Shown: one piece after another, positions 542 through 8,137 of the stretch
Layout of the letters: the number at the start of each line of letters is the position of its first letter
Numbering within the stretch: the first letter of the stretch is position 1
NCBI GenBank assembly: GCA_003144015.1
Contig: QFWS01000002.1
Coordinates: 434,001-498,000, forward strand
Length of the DNA: 64,000 bases
Direction of reading: 5' to 3'
DNA from: Flavobacteriaceae bacterium LYZ1037
GTDB taxonomy: Bacteria > Bacteroidota > Bacteroidia > Flavobacteriales > Flavobacteriaceae
Position numbers and translations under genes: made by a program
Notes under the pieces: model-generated
Database searches by the model: none
Seen by the model: the letters and a program-made list of their open reading frames with translations, nothing else
What the model was told of the DNA's origin: nothing

Positions 542-1150
542 ATGATCAAAAAACTATTATTTATATGCACAATTTTTGGGATTACACATGCAACTAAAGC
601 CCAATCTCAAATACCTAATAAGGCTGAAGACATAAGCCCTTTACTTATTGGAGAACGTATTCCAAACGCAAACCTACTTGATGTTGAAGGTCATGAAATT
701 CAATTAAAGGATATTATAAAAGTAAAACCAACTGTCCTTGTATTTTATCGTGGAGGTTGGTGTCCATACTGTAATACTCAATTATCAAGCTTAGCAGAAT
801 CTGAAAACGAAATCATTGAACTAGGTTACCAAATAGTCGCAATAAGTCCAGATCATTATGAGAATTTAAAATCGACTATGGAAGCAGATAAAGTTACTTA
901 CAACTTGTATGCAGATCCTGAAGCTATATTAATTCAAGATATGGGCATTGGTTTTAAAACTCCAAGTATGGCAAAAATGTATATTGCAAACAAAACAAAA
1001 ATGGATGCTACAGATATTCTTCCTGTTCCAACGGTTATGATATTAAATACTTTTGGAGATATTTTGTTTGAATATATTAATCCTAATTATAAAGTGCGGT
1101 TAAGCTCAGAATTATTACTAGCCAGTTTGAAAGTCTTGAAAGCAGAATAA
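542..1150 (+). CDS. Secreted peroxiredoxin-like (AhpC/TSA) protein
   Basis: 202 residues starting with a signal peptide (MIKKLLFICTIFGITHATKA, cleavage near residue 20). This points to the periplasm. The rest matches the AhpC/TSA thioredoxin-fold family: the active-site stretch FYRGGWCPYCNTQL places a CxxC pair at Cys74 and Cys77, followed by the AISPDHYENL strand usual for peroxiredoxin-like proteins. The family reduces peroxides or acts as a thiol-disulfide reductase. The CPYC pair resembles a thioredoxin/glutaredoxin site rather than a lone peroxidatic Cys, so a reductase role is equally possible. It stands alone between the antiporter and the DUF3179 gene. Confidence 0.8.
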   Translation: MIKKLLFICTIFGITHATKAQSQIPNKAEDISPLLIGERIPNANLLDVEGHEIQLKDIIKVKPTVLVFYRGGWCPYCNTQLSSLAESENEIIELGYQIVAISPDHYENLKSTMEADKVTYNLYADPEAILIQDMGIGFKTPSMAKMYIANKTKMDATDILPVPTVMILNTFGDILFEYINPNYKVRLSSELLLASLKVLKAE

Positions 1151-1273
1151 TAAAAAGCAGCTATATTTAATGAGACAAATTGAACATGTCTGTTTTTTAA
1201 TATGTTAAACTTTGTAAGTAATAATGTATTTGACGACATAATTTATATATAAATCTCTTTAAATCTTTAAGTT

Positions 1274-2257
1274 ATTAAACAGATACTACTATTATTTTTA
1301 GCAATTACTTTTCTAAATTGTTCGTCAGATGATTCCAATAAAGGTGATACTTCAAATGGAGATTGGTTAGTAAATTCATCAGATATTTCTGGTGCTTTCA
1401 ATTTATTTCCTTTGTCTTTAAATCCAGAATTTACAACAGTTTCAGAAACTAGTTTAAGCGATGGTAGCTTAGTAGGTGTTGTATCAATTGGTTCGGCAGT
1501 TTTGGTTTTTCCTAATGATTTTGTATATCAATTTGAGATTATTAATACAAGTTACAATGGTTTTGACTATGCCTTTAGTTATTGCCCTATAACCAAAAGC
1601 TCTATTGCATTTAAAAGAGATCAAATATTTAGAGCATCTGGATATTTGTATAAAGAAAATATGACGCCTTGGGATGAAAACACAGAAACAATTTGGTCTC
1701 AAATGTTAGGAAAAGCAATAAATGGAGATAATCCTAATAGAAGATTAGAAAAAATCCCAGTACTTAAAACCTCTTGGAGAACGGTAAAAGATTACTATCC
1801 TAATGCTCTGGTTATAAAACAATATAATAGACCAGAATTAGCTAAGGTACCACAATTGCCTAGTGATGAAGATGATGATATAGAAATGCCTTCTGATGCT
1901 GAATTAACCTATGGGATAGTTGAAAATAATTTACATAATGTCCACACATTTAGATATGCTGACTTTAGAGACTCTAAGCGAAAGGACGTTATTATACAGG
2001 GAGGTCAAAAATATATTATCTATGGAAATGCTTCAAAACAAGTTATGAATGCATATAAAGTAACAAGTTTTGATGATTTTGAATTGTTAGACGATTTAGA
2101 ATTTCCTTATATTTTAAAATCTAACAATATTAAATATGATATTTTAGGAAATAGTGCTACTGGAATCTCATTACAAAAACCAGAATTCTCTTATATGGCT
2201 GCTTGGTTTGCTTGGCGTGATTTTTTTGATGGGCATTTGTTTTATCCAAATGAATAA
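1274..2257 (+). CDS. DUF3179 lipoprotein, apparent ATT start
   Basis: The frame carries the DUF3179 signature: a CPITKSS stretch followed by a W-D-E-N-T-E-T-I-W-S-Q block and a later SWRTVKDYYP stretch. The family's function is unknown. An in-frame TTG exists at 1412, but the frame is open upstream to a stop at 1268-1270. The upstream codons from ATT at 1274 encode a clean lipoprotein signal (I/M-KQILLLFLAITFLNC) followed by SSDDSN. This resembles the Cys-Ser-Asp-Asp surface-export signal of flavobacterial lipoproteins. No ATG, GTG or TTG lies at the right place. I therefore annotate the start as ATT (327 residues), meaning either a rare start codon or a recently lost ATG. The domain call is firm, the start is inference. 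Confidence 0.7.
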   Translation: MKQILLLFLAITFLNCSSDDSNKGDTSNGDWLVNSSDISGAFNLFPLSLNPEFTTVSETSLSDGSLVGVVSIGSAVLVFPNDFVYQFEIINTSYNGFDYAFSYCPITKSSIAFKRDQIFRASGYLYKENMTPWDENTETIWSQMLGKAINGDNPNRRLEKIPVLKTSWRTVKDYYPNALVIKQYNRPELAKVPQLPSDEDDDIEMPSDAELTYGIVENNLHNVHTFRYADFRDSKRKDVIIQGGQKYIIYGNASKQVMNAYKVTSFDDFELLDDLEFPYILKSNNIKYDILGNSATGISLQKPEFSYMAAWFAWRDFFDGHLFYPNE

Positions 2258-2272
2258 TAACCTATTCATTAC

Positions 2273-3481
2273 TTACACACCAAAAGGGTTATCTATACTG
2301 TATGCTGGTTCTGTAAACCATTTTGGTCCTTCTACGGTCATGTATGCATGATCTTCTAAGCGAATGCCAAATGCATCTGGTACCACAATCATTGGCTCTA
2401 TACTAAATGCCATTCCAGGTTGTAATTTGATGTCATTTCCTTTAACAATAAATGGATGCTCATGGATTTCAAGACCAATACCATGACCTGTTCTATGTGG
2501 TAAGCCAGGTAAATCGTAAGCAGGGCCTAGTCCGTCTTTTTCTAATTGAATCCTAACTTGATCGTCAATATTACCACAAGTATGGCCTAGCTTTGCAGCA
2601 TTAAAAGCTGCCAATTGAGCTGCTTTTTCGTTTGTCCAGATTTTCCTTTCTTTATCAGTTGCGTTTCCATAAATATAAGTTCTAGTGATATCTGATAGAT
2701 AGCCTTTGTATTTACAGCCTGTATCTACTAAAACAATTTCATTTTCTTCTAATGCTTTTGGTGATTTAACACCATGTGGAAAACTTGAGTCTTTACCGAA
2801 CAATACTATACAAAAGTATGAACCACTTTCAATCCCCAATTTTTGATGTGCTTGATGAATAAAGCTCTCCACCTCGTTAGTAGTGATACCTGGTTTTAAA
2901 ATTCTAGCCACTGCTTGGTGTACTTGCATGGTTAAATTCATTGGGTATTGGATGTGAGCAATTTCGGCTTTGCTTTTAAGCATTCGAATATCTCTAATTA
3001 ACACTTCGGCACTGCTAATTCTAAACTTCTTGTGTTCCAAAAAGCGCGAAACATCTGTAAAGCGCGTGGAATCATCTATAGCTAATCGTGTGCCTTCAGC
3101 GAGTACTTCTGCTATTTTTTGTATAGGGCTTTCGTGTTCTAACCAAGGAATAAATTCGCCAGCTACACCAATAAAATCATTGAAAGTGCCTATTTCGAAT
3201 TCTGGCACTACATATCGTAGAGTTCCATCGGCAAAAAGAAGAGCGCCAACTAAGCGTTCGGATGGATTCCATTGGGTGTTGGTAAAATACTGTAAATTGG
3301 TTCCTGCATTGATATAAAGTGCATCTAAATGGTTAGATTTTAAAGCGTCACATGCTTTGTCTAGTCTGTTTTGGTATTCCTTATCATCAATAGGTGCAGG
3401 TTTAGCAGTTAAAGGACTTAATTTTAAAAGTTCTTCTTCTGGTGTGCTGCCACCAATTCCGTATGCTCTGTTGCTGTTCAT
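2273..3481 (-). CDS. M24 family Xaa-Pro aminopeptidase/dipeptidase
   Basis: A 402-residue cytoplasmic metallopeptidase with the 'pita-bread' fold of aminopeptidase P and prolidase. The N-terminal creatinase-like domain spans about residues 35-170 and the catalytic M24 domain about 180-395. All five metal ligands are visible: Asp253 and Asp264 in VDTGCKYKGYLSD, His333 in TGHGIGLEIHEHP, Glu362 in SIEPM and Glu376 in IRLEDH. These bind two Mn/Co ions. The role is release of N-terminal residues before proline, or cleavage of X-Pro dipeptides; sequence alone does not separate these. It ends 15 bases from the convergent DUF3179 gene with no terminator between them. Confidence 0.88.
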   Translation of the reverse strand: MNSNRAYGIGGSTPEEELLKLSPLTAKPAPIDDKEYQNRLDKACDALKSNHLDALYINAGTNLQYFTNTQWNPSERLVGALLFADGTLRYVVPEFEIGTFNDFIGVAGEFIPWLEHESPIQKIAEVLAEGTRLAIDDSTRFTDVSRFLEHKKFRISSAEVLIRDIRMLKSKAEIAHIQYPMNLTMQVHQAVARILKPGITTNEVESFIHQAHQKLGIESGSYFCIVLFGKDSSFPHGVKSPKALEENEIVLVDTGCKYKGYLSDITRTYIYGNATDKERKIWTNEKAAQLAAFNAAKLGHTCGNIDDQVRIQLEKDGLGPAYDLPGLPHRTGHGIGLEIHEHPFIVKGNDIKLQPGMAFSIEPMIVVPDAFGIRLEDHAYMTVEGPKWFTEPAYSIDNPFGV

Positions 3482-3897: not shown

Positions 3898-4629
3898 ATG
3901 AATTTAATTATAGACGTTGGGAATACATTTGTTAAGTTTGCTGTTTTTCAGGCAGATGACCTTGTTTTTCAATCTTCAGTAGACGTTTTTCAATTTGAAA
4001 AAGAATTTCAGGTTATACAGAAAAAATACAGTAATTTGATTCATTGTATTGTTTCATCTGTAGGAAATTTAGATAAAGAAAGCATTAATGTGCTTCAGGA
4101 ATCATTAAAAGTTGTCATTTTGAACTCAGAAACTAAGCTGCCTTTCCTTAATTTATATAAAACTCCCAAAACTTTGGGTGTAGATAGATTGGCATTAGTG
4201 AGTGCAGCTGTAAAAGAATTTCCTAATAAAAATGCCCTTATTATCGACGCAGGAACCTGTATTACTTACGACTATATATCTAATAAAAACACTTACTTAG
4301 GAGGCGCCATTTCTCCAGGAATTAGAATGCGCTATAAGTCCTTAAATAATTTAACAGCTAATCTGCCGTTATTAGAAACAAATGTGGCAAATAGTATTAT
4401 TGGAGACTCAACAGAAAACGCTATTCACTCTGGTGTCGTTTTTGGGGTTTTAAATGAAATTGAAGGTACAATTAGTCAATATCAACAAAAATATTCAGAT
4501 TTAACAGTTATTTTAACAGGTGGAGACGCTAATTTTTTGTCTAAACAATTAAAAAGTAGCATATTTGCCAACTCAAATTTCCTTTTACAAGGATTGAATT
4601 ATATTTTACAATACAATACAACCGAATGA
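3898..4629 (+). CDS. coaX: Type III pantothenate kinase
   Basis: 243 residues, the usual length of CoaX. It phosphorylates pantothenate to 4'-phosphopantothenate with ATP, the first committed step of coenzyme A synthesis. Visible motifs are the N-terminal phosphate-binding strand MNLIIDVGNT with Asp6, GVDRLALVSAA near residue 94, the IIDAGTCITYD block near 114-124 carrying the catalytic Asp, GGAISPG near 142, and TGGDA close to the C-terminus. The type III enzyme is not feedback-inhibited by CoA. Its stop overlaps the start of the next gene in ATGA, so it heads a forward run of envelope genes. Confidence 0.95.
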   Translation: MNLIIDVGNTFVKFAVFQADDLVFQSSVDVFQFEKEFQVIQKKYSNLIHCIVSSVGNLDKESINVLQESLKVVILNSETKLPFLNLYKTPKTLGVDRLALVSAAVKEFPNKNALIIDAGTCITYDYISNKNTYLGGAISPGIRMRYKSLNNLTANLPLLETNVANSIIGDSTENAIHSGVVFGVLNEIEGTISQYQQKYSDLTVILTGGDANFLSKQLKSSIFANSNFLLQGLNYILQYNTTE

Positions 4630-5951
4630 TAAAAAAACTTGTATTAGTTTTTATTGCAATGTTTGCAATTCAAAGTTACGCTCAAGAAGGGACTGCTTCA
4701 CCTTATTCTTTTTATGGAATAGGTAGTTTAAAATTTAAAGGAACAGTGGAAAATAGGAGTATGGGAGGAATTAGCGTATTCTCAGATAGTATCCATATTA
4801 ATCTAAGTAATCCAGCGTCTTATGGTTCTAAAAATATTGAAGCATATAATAATGAAAGCAGACCTGTTAAATTTGCTATAGGTGGTGGACATACAAATTC
4901 TAAACTTAAAAGCGATACTTCATCAGACGAGGTAAACTCAACAACCTTCGATTATTTAGCCATGTCTTTTCCAATTGGTAAATTTGGACTTGGACTTGGA
5001 TTAATTCCATATACTTCTGTCGGTTATAAATTAGAATCATTAAATGATGACAATGAACTTTATAGCCAATTTAGAGGTGAAGGTGGTGTTAATAAGGCCT
5101 ATACCTCTTTAGGGTATATGGTAAATAACAAGCTAAGCTTAGGGGTCGATTTTGGTTTTAATTTTGGAAATATAAAAAACAATACCATTCAATACGTTTA
5201 TACTAACGAAGGAGACTTAGCACAATATCAAAGTAGAGAAGATAATAGGTCAGATTTAACTGGAATTACATTAAATTTTGGAGCTATTTACAAAACGGTT
5301 CTTTCTAATGGTTTTGAATTAACAACAAGTTTGACTTATAGGCCTAAAACGAATCTTACTTCAAAAAATTCTAGAACCTTCAATACCATTGTAATAAATC
5401 CAGTTAATGGTAATGAATTGGTTGTAAACTCTATTGAAGCAAATTTAGAAGGACAAGGATTAAAAGAAACAAAATTAGCGCTACCTTCTAAGTTGTCATT
5501 AGGGGCAGGTTTAGGACAACCAAATAGATGGTTTGTTGGTGCAGAGTATACGTTGCTTAATACGAGTAAGTTTTCTAACGTTTTATATGAGTCAAGTGAT
5601 TCAGCAGGAAATGTTAAATATAAAAATGCTTCAACAGTTTCGGTAGGTGGGTTTTATATTCCAGATTACAACTCTTTCTCAAGTTACTTAAAAAGAGTTG
5701 TTTATAGGGCTGGAGTTCGATTCGAAGGAACAGGTTTAAATATTAATGATGAAAACATAAATGAGTTTGGCATATCTTTTGGAGTAGGATTACCAATGGG
5801 AAGCGCTAGTGCTTTCTCAAATGCAAACTTTGGATTTGAATTTGGTAAAAAGGGAACAACCAGTCAAAATCTTATTCAAGAGAATTTTATAAACCTCCAA
5901 CTAAGTTTGTCATTTAACGCTAGATGGTTCCAAAGACAAAAATTTAATTAA
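4626..5951 (+). CDS. Outer-membrane beta-barrel protein
   Basis: 441 residues with a signal peptide (MIKKLVLVFIAMFAIQSYAQ, ending in the common flavobacterial AQ cleavage site). The mature N-terminus (SPYSFYGIGSLKFKGTVENRSMGG...LSNPASYG) resembles the plug start of FadL/OmpP1-like barrels: 'S-x-Y-S-x-x-G-x-G' followed by 'NPA'. The remainder alternates short amphipathic strands with Asn/Gly turns, and the protein ends in an aromatic-rich strand (LSLSFNARWFQRQ). I infer an outer-membrane channel or transporter. The substrate is unknown. The start overlaps the coaX stop by 4 bases, suggesting translational coupling, and the TPR protein follows after 17 bases. Confidence 0.75.
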   Translation: MIKKLVLVFIAMFAIQSYAQEGTASPYSFYGIGSLKFKGTVENRSMGGISVFSDSIHINLSNPASYGSKNIEAYNNESRPVKFAIGGGHTNSKLKSDTSSDEVNSTTFDYLAMSFPIGKFGLGLGLIPYTSVGYKLESLNDDNELYSQFRGEGGVNKAYTSLGYMVNNKLSLGVDFGFNFGNIKNNTIQYVYTNEGDLAQYQSREDNRSDLTGITLNFGAIYKTVLSNGFELTTSLTYRPKTNLTSKNSRTFNTIVINPVNGNELVVNSIEANLEGQGLKETKLALPSKLSLGAGLGQPNRWFVGAEYTLLNTSKFSNVLYESSDSAGNVKYKNASTVSVGGFYIPDYNSFSSYLKRVVYRAGVRFEGTGLNINDENINEFGISFGVGLPMGSASAFSNANFGFEFGKKGTTSQNLIQENFINLQLSLSFNARWFQRQKFN

Positions 5952-5968
5952 ACAATAAACTAGATATT

Positions 5969-7351
5969 ATGAAAACGAAGATTACATTACTAGCTCTTTT
6001 GCTGTTTTTTGGGTTCAATGTTGTAAATGCGCAACAAGACGAAGAATGTATGACTAACTTGTCTATATTCTCTGAATATGCAAAAGCTAAAAACTATGAT
6101 GCTGCATTTGATTCTTGGATGAAAGTAAGAAAAAAATGTCCACAACTTAATAGAGCAATCTATACCTATGGGGAGGATATTTTAGATCATAAAATCGAAA
6201 ATGCATCTGGTGCAGAAAAAACAGCTTACATAAACGACCTAATTAAACTTTGGGAAGAACGTGAGCAATATTTTGCAAGTAAAACTCCTAAAGGAGAGTA
6301 TGGTGCTAAAGCATGTCAGTTAATGTATGATAATAGAGAGTTGTTAAATAAAACGGATGGTGATTTATTTGCTTGTTTTGATGCAGCTTACAAAGCGGAT
6401 CCAGAAACGTTTACCAATCCAAAATCTCTATACACTTACTTTTCTTTAATGGTCGATTTATATGATGCAGGAGATAAGACAGCTTCAGAGTTATTTAATA
6501 AATACGATGATGTTGTTGAGAAAGTTGAACAAGAAGTAGGAAATTATTCTGAAAGCTTAAATGTGCTTATTGAAAAAGAAGATGCAGGAACCGCTTTAAC
6601 AAGTAAAGAAAAAAGTTATAAAAAATATTATGAAAGTTATTTAAAGGCTTACGATCAAATTGCTGGAAGTATTAACAGTAAACTAGGTTCTAGAGCTAAT
6701 TGCGAAAACTTAATACCATTATACACTAAAGATTTTGAAGCTAACAAAACAAATGCAGTTTGGTTACAAAGAGCTGCTGGAAATATGTCTGCTAAAGAAT
6801 GTACAGACGATCCATTATTCTTTAAACTAGTAAATGCATACCATAATATCAGTCCTTCGGCTAATTCTGCTTACTACTTAGGAATCTTAAAAGATAAAGA
6901 AGGTAAAACTTCTGAAGCTATTAAGTTTTACGAACAAGCAATTAGCTTACAATCTGATAGTTTCAAAAAAGCTAAGCTTTATGAAAAAATTGGTGATAAA
7001 TTAAAAGCGAAAGGAAATTATGGCTCTGCAAGAGGTTACTTTAGAAACGCATTAAAATTTAATCCATCTAATGGAAGACCACATTTAAAAATTGCAGATA
7101 TGTATAACAGAAGTGCAAATAACTGTGGAGACACTAACTTTAATAAAAGAGCTGTTTTCTGGTTAGCAGCAGATGAAGCAGAAAAAGCTGGTCGTGTAGA
7201 TCCAACATTAAAAAGTGCAGCAGCACAATCTGCAGCTAGTTATAGAGCAAAAGCACCTCAGAAATCTGAAATTTTTAGCGAGGGTAATGCAGGTCAAAAC
7301 ATTGCAATAGGGTGTTGGATTGGTGCAAGTGTTACCGTACCAAGTATCTAA
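5969..7351 (+). CDS. Secreted TPR-repeat protein
   Basis: 460 residues with a signal peptide (MKTKITLLALLLFFGFNVVNAQQ). Helical throughout. Two clear tetratricopeptide repeats lie around residues 298-330 (SAYYLGILKDKEGKTSEAIKFYEQAI) and 335-368 (YEKIGDKLKAKGNYGSARGYFRNAL...NP). The N-terminal half probably holds divergent repeats. TPR arrays bind partner proteins, so this is likely a periplasmic scaffold, possibly for the barrel encoded just upstream; the partner is inference. Its TAA stop shares one base with the lptC ATG. A terminator-like palindrome follows 29 bases after the stop, inside lptC. Confidence 0.8.
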   Translation: MKTKITLLALLLFFGFNVVNAQQDEECMTNLSIFSEYAKAKNYDAAFDSWMKVRKKCPQLNRAIYTYGEDILDHKIENASGAEKTAYINDLIKLWEEREQYFASKTPKGEYGAKACQLMYDNRELLNKTDGDLFACFDAAYKADPETFTNPKSLYTYFSLMVDLYDAGDKTASELFNKYDDVVEKVEQEVGNYSESLNVLIEKEDAGTALTSKEKSYKKYYESYLKAYDQIAGSINSKLGSRANCENLIPLYTKDFEANKTNAVWLQRAAGNMSAKECTDDPLFFKLVNAYHNISPSANSAYYLGILKDKEGKTSEAIKFYEQAISLQSDSFKKAKLYEKIGDKLKAKGNYGSARGYFRNALKFNPSNGRPHLKIADMYNRSANNCGDTNFNKRAVFWLAADEAEKAGRVDPTLKSAAAQSAASYRAKAPQKSEIFSEGNAGQNIAIGCWIGASVTVPSI

Positions 7352-7905
7352 TGATAAAAACATATTTACATATATCTAGAAACATAGTCACAGCAATTGC
7401 TGTGACTATGTTTTTTTCATGTAAAAACAACTTCGAAGAAGTTAAAAAAATTGGAATTTCAGAAAATGCACCTATAGGGATTGCAGAACATATAGATTTA
7501 AAATACACAGATTCTGGTCGCGTCACAGCTAATTTGAAAAGCCCAAAGATGTTAGATTATTCGAATAGAGAATTTGCTTTTAACGAATTTCCAGATGGCA
7601 TTGATTTAGATTTATTCGATGAACAAAACCAAAAAAGTAATGTCATAGCAGATTATGCTATAGTTTACGACAAAACAGGCATTATAGACTTACAAGGCAA
7701 TGTCGTGCTTTCTTCAACAAATAAAGACACCTTGTTTGCAGAACAACTTTATTACGACCAAAACCGAGAATGGCTTTTTACCAACAAGCCTGTTACTTTT
7801 AGAACGGGTCAAGATGTTATAAATGGCAAGGGGTTCGACTCGGACACCAAGTTTAATCAAGCTCAAGTTTTAGAAATTGATGGCATCATAACACTTGACG
7901 AATAA
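7351..7905 (+). CDS. lptC: LPS export protein LptC (lipoprotein form)
   Basis: 184 residues from the ATG at 7351. An upstream in-frame ATG at 7312 lies inside the TPR gene and would bury the signal peptide, so I reject it. The sequence begins with a membrane signal ending in FFSC (Cys24), a probable lipid-anchored Cys. It continues with the LptC/OstA beta-jellyroll pattern: repeated strands such as IVYDKTGIIDLQGNVVLSS and VINGKGFDSD. LptC receives lipopolysaccharide from the LptBFG transporter at the inner membrane and passes it to LptA. The signal-peptide codons (residues 11-22) are formed by a perfect 34-bp palindrome; see the separate entry. Confidence 0.85.
   Translation: MIKTYLHISRNIVTAIAVTMFFSCKNNFEEVKKIGISENAPIGIAEHIDLKYTDSGRVTANLKSPKMLDYSNREFAFNEFPDGIDLDLFDEQNQKSNVIADYAIVYDKTGIIDLQGNVVLSSTNKDTLFAEQLYYDQNREWLFTNKPVTFRTGQDVINGKGFDSDTKFNQAQVLEIDGIITLDE
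7380..7417 (+). terminator. Perfect 34-bp palindrome plus T-run inside lptC
   Basis: Bases 7380-7413 are a perfect palindrome centred on CACAGCAATTGCTGTG. As RNA this gives a 15-bp stem with an AATT loop, preceded by A and followed by four more Ts (7414-7417). It has the form of an intrinsic terminator and lies 29 bases after the TPR gene's stop, but it is inside the lptC coding sequence. It could act as an attenuator that translating ribosomes keep open. Structure is seen directly; function is inference. Confidence 0.6.
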
Positions 7906-7942
7906 ATCAGTATCTTTACCCAACCATTTTTAAACTATTCAA

Positions 7943-8137
7943 ATGAAAATATTTAAGTTTTTTCAATACGCCTATTTACTTTTTGCTATTATTTTTGTGT
8001 ATGACGCAATTTCAAAATACATGGAAACAGGAACCATTGCTTATACCTCATTACTGTTAGCAGGAGCAGCAGTTTTTATGTTTTTCTTTAGAAAAAAGTT
8101 CAACAAGAAATTTGAAAATAAAGAGGACAACAAATAA
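7943..8137 (+). CDS. Small two-helix membrane protein
   Basis: A 64-residue protein with two predicted membrane helices (about 8-22 and 35-50: YLLFAIIFVYDAI and SLLLAGAAVFMFFF) and a strongly basic, charged C-terminal tail (RKKFNKKFENKEDNK). I do not recognise a named family. The frame is credible because it begins at an ATG shortly after lptC and its TAA shares a base with the ATG of the CNNM/CorC gene, a one-base stop-start overlap that suggests coupled translation. A possible -7 box (TATCTTTA) lies near 7910. A helper subunit of one of its membrane-protein neighbours is possible but unproven. Confidence 0.7.
   Translation: MKIFKFFQYAYLLFAIIFVYDAISKYMETGTIAYTSLLLAGAAVFMFFFRKKFNKKFENKEDNK

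Follow-up and report, generated by a model that had tools for sequence, protein, structure and literature searches.

The TPR gene-lptC junction and its palindrome

The analysed window, a stretch of 64,000 nucleotides starting at position 434001 of contig C23, is part of the 3.19 Mb genome of Flavobacteriaceae bacterium LYZ1037, the nearest named relatives of which are mostly Xanthomarina species. The genes described here lie on the forward strand. Two genes upstream of lptC, a bamG-like gene (4626..5951) encodes a BamG family subunit of the Bacteroidota beta-barrel assembly machinery (BAM), as identified by the NCBIfam model NF053685 (BamG) with 431.8 bits against a cut-off of 250. BamG is a BAM subunit that is required in F. 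johnsoniae (PMC12611786). The following gene (5969..7351) contains TPR repeats, with matches to Pfam TPR_1 and TPR_2 above the cut-off, and ends with a TAA stop codon at 7349-7351. Shortly 5' of its start, at 5902-5909, there is a TAAGTTTG box, a candidate -7 element of a Bacteroidota promoter from which the TPR gene could be transcribed. The third gene, lptC (7351..7905), encodes a protein of 184 amino acids that scores above the cut-offs of two curated models, Pfam LptC (58 bits) and the NCBIfam equivalog TIGR04409 for LptC (89.4 bits), and is thereby identified as the LPS-export periplasmic protein LptC, lipoprotein type, which has a part in building the outer membrane. As claimed in the original prediction, the TPR stop codon and the lptC start codon share one base, the A at 7351 (TAATG). 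The lipobox of LptC ends with F-S-C at codons 22-24 (7414..7422), among which F22 and C24 are invariant in our alignment A3, and Cys24 is predicted to be the lipidated residue.

A perfect 34-base palindrome (7380..7413) is located 28 bases after the TPR stop codon. Its arms, 7380-7396 and 7397-7413, are 100% complementary with zero spacer, and as RNA they form a hairpin with a stem of 15-17 bp and a 4-nt loop. Among the 14 close inverted repeats of the 64-kb window it is the only perfect 17-nt pair. The RNA from 7380 to 7420 folds at -22.6 kcal/mol, versus -5.05 ± 2.06 kcal/mol for shuffled sequences (z -8.5). The palindrome leads into a run of seven T residues (7411..7417), the first three of which are its own last three bases. 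This T-run, the U-tract of a predicted terminator, is present solely in the direction of lptC transcription and at the same time provides the Phe-Phe codons TTT TTT. The palindrome codes for NIVTAIAVTMF of the signal peptide. The original prediction correctly placed it inside the signal-peptide codons of lptC, but the assignment to residues 11-22 has to be corrected: the palindrome begins at the third base of codon 10 and ends with codon 21, and codon 22 lies in the T-run. The NIVTAIAVTMF noticed earlier on the opposite strand is real, but it is merely what an in-phase palindrome must give. An Rfam search over positions 6900-8000 returned sub-threshold matches only and none at the gathering score.

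Conservation of the hairpin and of the peptide

The original prediction had raised the question of whether the palindrome or only the peptide is conserved in related genomes. It is clearly the palindrome, as indicated by covariation of the stem, replacement of whole stems, and codon redrawing. A hairpin with a T-run just 5' of the LptC lipobox was found across the Flavobacteriaceae. Of 65 junctions at which both genes were present, taken from named or labelled relatives, 62 had a distance of 55-68 nt from the TPR stop codon to the Phe-Phe codons. The three exceptions all fall within the genus Xanthomarina, and outside the genus the embedded hairpin is the rule. A gap-free alignment of 80 sequences had 96.3% of its cells paired, with changes on both sides in 10 of 13 pairs, and its covariation score was 0.305 versus 0.178 ± 0.008 when shuffled and at most 0.087 when slid. 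Among 128 distinct same-register sequences, both-side changes were seen in all 13 stem pairs and 93.4% of the cells pair, a count somewhat favoured by the choice of the register for each sequence. Most other registers differ by multiples of three, as coding sequence demands. Whole stems have been replaced, and the peptide along with them, as in GTCACAGC/GCTGTGAC, GCGTGATGGC/GCCATCACGC, and GGGTTGTCG/CGACAACCC.

A covariance model of the hairpin matched 263 of 397 family genomes at E ≤ 0.1, and its strong hits, compared by eye with a protein search, lie at the start of lptC. The more distant family members keep a hairpin and a T-run with different stems, and a T-run of at least six T was present in 62/62 nearer and 79/95 more distant family sequences. 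The hairpin was absent or weak, with lptC kept, in L119, L126, L163, and 4/20 sequences of genus g127 (L185, L200, L204, and L205); therefore, it is not indispensable. In one further relative (L155 of G028, positions ~995-3290) the TPR-lptC unit is tandemly duplicated, and both copies contain the embedded hairpin; the second lptC copy is internally shortened.

Outside the family, the element was present in representatives of the Flavobacteriales families f2, f4, f7, and f14. In f5 it was for the most part not observed, apart from one hairpin whose T-run is short (L262), and the representatives of f8, f11, f12, f13, and f15 showed none. Among 20 representatives of other families and orders of the class, there were five (L318, L321, L325, L326, and L334) in which a hairpin with four to six T behind it precedes the lipobox.

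The contribution of the peptide was assessed by keeping it fixed and redrawing the codons 200 times from the codon usage of this genome. The z-score was below -2 in 160 of 171 relatives, and in 121 of the 171 the native hairpin was more stable than all 200 redraws. When the same procedure was applied along lptC and the TPR gene, z was below -2 at the hairpin window in 31/31 sequences, compared to 0-35% elsewhere. Peptide constraint as the cause of the hairpin was thus rejected by the redrawing. The Phe-rich peptide by itself accounts for part of the T-run, with a mean of 5.2 T expected and 6.4 seen. A weaker excess of RNA structure beyond that explained by the peptide was also observed in the TPR gene, ~440 codons before its stop and near the start of the mature TPR protein, where z was below -2 in 35% of the 31 sequences.

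Given the perfect palindrome of this genome and the nearly mirror-symmetric peptide that it encodes (IVTAxAVTM), the element could be thought of as a protein-binding DNA site or as a by-product of the symmetric peptide. The wholesale replacement of the stem sequences with pairing kept disfavours a protein-binding palindrome, and a symmetric peptide is at odds with the redrawing, which destroys the hairpin under a fixed peptide. We regard both ideas as scarcely credible. Judging from these comparisons, the RNA structure, and not the peptide, is what evolution kept.

The position of the hairpin relative to lptC differs within the genus. Among its eight genomes, the hairpin lies inside lptC in four, while in the other four lptC starts further downstream and the hairpin separates it from the TPR gene; a separate lptC start was also found in L037, which belongs to another genus. 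In these five relatives (L006, L008, L009, L010, and L037), ~70-90 bases are inserted, lptC uses a new start and signal peptide further downstream, and the old hairpin lies upstream. There the hairpin and a run of 7-8 T persist as intergenic sequence and have therefore been kept without coding for the LptC signal peptide. A recent deletion that fused an intergenic terminator into lptC was considered and rejected, the hairpin being embedded nearly everywhere in the wider family, and the separate state in some Xanthomarina looks derived. While a first, shorter tree of the genus gave no resolution of its history, a tree of the flanking sequences did not group the four separate-state Xanthomarina genomes into one clade (3 changes, AU p 8e-75), so repeated change or recombination is likely.

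A predicted terminator at the start of lptC

A 660-kb part of contig C23 was scanned for hairpins with 8 or more pairs accompanied by 6 or more T. The scan returned 117 sites, of which 95 are intergenic. The lptC site scores second overall, is the strongest of those lying in the sense direction within an ORF, and resembles the many intergenic terminators of the genome. Its distance from the upstream stop codon is ~28 nt; among the other strong sites of this genome the median is 21 nt and the middle half spans 17-26.5. When the count was limited to sites fully inside an ORF, in the sense direction, and with a score above 20, three were within 100 nt of a start as called by simple ORF calling: those at lptC, at rnc, and at 483556, the last of which probably precedes the true start of its gene. 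No near-start site above this score was found in another contig of 691 kb or in 60 kb of a third one, the survey covering about 1.4 of 3.2 Mb.

The rnc gene, encoding RNase III (G000:C23:159671-160411; L213 from 19671, into L214), was seen to carry a terminator-shaped hairpin with seven T within its first 20 codons. The hairpin, AAATTCCCGTTC-loop-GACGGGAATTTTTTTG, encodes LNSRSKNDGNFF, and it is preserved with minor changes in nearly all of the 28 sequences that could be read, each from a different genome (relatives L266-L295, Flavobacteriaceae). RNase III has no signal peptide, and such an embedded layout therefore does not require one. This bears on a possible role of the lptC hairpin in translation, where it might, for instance, slow ribosomes at the signal peptide or damp the initiation of lptC. 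Such a role would suit its location in the signal-peptide codons and the register shifts among relatives, which are mostly multiples of three. However, rnc has the same kind of element, the lptC hairpin is retained intergenically when lptC starts downstream, and a role in translation leaves the T-run without function; we consider it very improbable.

The original prediction described the site as terminator-like in shape and place, and this was borne out: the 15-17 bp stem with its 4-nt loop is followed by T7 ~28 nt past the stop codon, and an evolutionary signature is added to these features. A stable stem-loop followed by a T-run, a location just 3' of the stop codon of a co-directional gene, and selection on structure rather than sequence are what characterizes an intrinsic terminator. 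On this evidence from sequence, we consider it likely that the palindrome and the T-run constitute an operon-internal intrinsic terminator that separates the TPR gene from lptC and acts as a partial attenuator. The overlap of the lptC start with the TPR stop codon leaves a terminator at the usual spacing no place but the first 22 codons of lptC, and here it would be written into the codons for the hydrophobic core of the signal peptide. An intrinsic terminator has been shown to work less than 100 bp into a coding sequence (PMC4824070). On the other hand, a transcript ended at the T-run carries the lptC start without a stop codon and would cost ribosome rescue, which counts against a terminator.

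A stable conserved stem past a stop codon would also shield the upstream mRNA from 3' exonucleases. The hairpin could accordingly be a 3'-end stabiliser or a processing signal that separates the TPR and lptC mRNAs without stopping the polymerase. A pure stabiliser needs no T-run, whereas the T-run after the stem is kept even where it does not code for the Phe-Phe of LptC, and the site resembles the many intergenic terminators of the genome. This explanation appears quite unlikely to us.

Under the preferred reading as an internal terminator, most RNA polymerases transcribing bamG and the TPR gene would stop at the T-run, and the 3' end of the TPR mRNA is predicted to form at the embedded hairpin. 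A fraction of the polymerases would read through and give the full lptC mRNA, and LptC would be produced in smaller amounts than its partners encoded upstream. We infer the stopping of the polymerase, the partial readthrough, and as its purpose the setting of the TPR:LptC ratio. A search for the Bacteroidota -7 promoter box, TAnnTTTG, found none between 5910 and 7989, and found it near the junction in only 2 of 65 relatives. Since there is no such box between the TPR gene and lptC, lptC probably depends on transcriptional readthrough; a promoter of another type may lie within the TPR gene, which would count against this dependence.

The terminator might in addition depend on translation. According to this proposal, ribosomes that complete the TPR gene restart at the overlapping ATG and hold the hairpin open, and LptC is made only when the TPR gene is well translated. 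In most relatives the start codon of lptC overlaps the TPR stop codon or comes directly after it (TAATG, TAAATG, TAAGATG), which favours restart, and signs of leader-peptide attenuation are reported for amino-acid operons of F. psychrophilum (PMC9723704). The data from E. coli point the other way: translation reduced the efficiency of a terminator 30 bp past the start codon by only ~10%, and a terminator 28 bp past the stop codon was ~90% efficient, escaping the terminating ribosome (PMC4824070). Moreover, the hairpin persists where the translation of lptC, starting downstream, no longer crosses it. An alternative antiterminator fold was not found either: the minimum-energy fold of 7340-7440 is the terminator hairpin, and the centroid fold of this region of ~100 nt around the site showed no competing alternative. 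In our literature search, no statement was found either way on transcription-translation coupling of the E. coli kind in Bacteroidota. The earlier suggestion that restarting ribosomes hold the hairpin open is thus unsupported, the E. coli data predicting a small effect at ~28 nt after both start and stop. Nothing in our analysis shows the postulated dependence of LptC output on TPR translation, and the spacing from stop to hairpin is ordinary for this genome. Taken together, we view a translation-dependent attenuator as rather doubtful, and less likely than a plain internal terminator.

Significance and comparison with known systems

About 40 bases would here serve both as a lipoprotein signal peptide and as a terminator, and lineages have repeatedly swapped stems with both demands met, which makes the junction a clean natural case of dual coding. 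It is a likely control point for the stoichiometry of LPS export, and the regulation of envelope genes is little known in Bacteroidota. A terminator in a translated gene start should also report the extent of transcription-translation coupling in this phylum, and synonymous recoding of the 5' ends of lptC or rnc could alter the expression of their operons. An attenuating terminator in the first codons of the downstream gene might even be a general, unrecognised layout in Bacteroidota, which at lptC would respond to envelope assembly through the translation or export of the nascent signal peptide and so sense lipoprotein export or the balance of BAM and Lpt; we mention this as an unlikely extension.

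Our literature search found no paper combining lptC and 'intrinsic terminator'. In the same family, the transcriptome study of F. psychrophilum defines a class of transcribed regions as products of partial termination at predicted intrinsic terminators (PMC9723704), which resembles what we propose; the main-text passages of that paper found by term do not mention lptC or terminators inside coding sequence. Leader-peptide attenuation of the trp, his, and pyrBI type shares with lptC a translated stretch that overlaps the terminator, but at lptC no separate leader peptide or alternative antiterminator fold was seen, and the overlapping frame is that of a structural gene. The engineered tR2 construct of E. 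coli is similar in having a terminator ~30 bp past the start codon, where tR2 is still efficient (PMC4824070), while the lptC element is natural and conserved. Operon-internal intrinsic terminators, which set gene ratios by partial readthrough, share with lptC a hairpin and T-run between co-directional genes of an operon, shortly past the stop codon, and the search at lptC revealed no promoter motif downstream of the hairpin. Differential expression by internal termination has been documented, for example in an archaeon (PMC10450193). The lptC element differs from such terminators in lying wholly in the coding start of the downstream gene, in encoding a signal peptide, and in showing family-wide covariation, and its readthrough is one that we infer. 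It is best read as operon-internal attenuation in a variant form, where the attenuating element would be carried by the coding sequence of the downstream gene.
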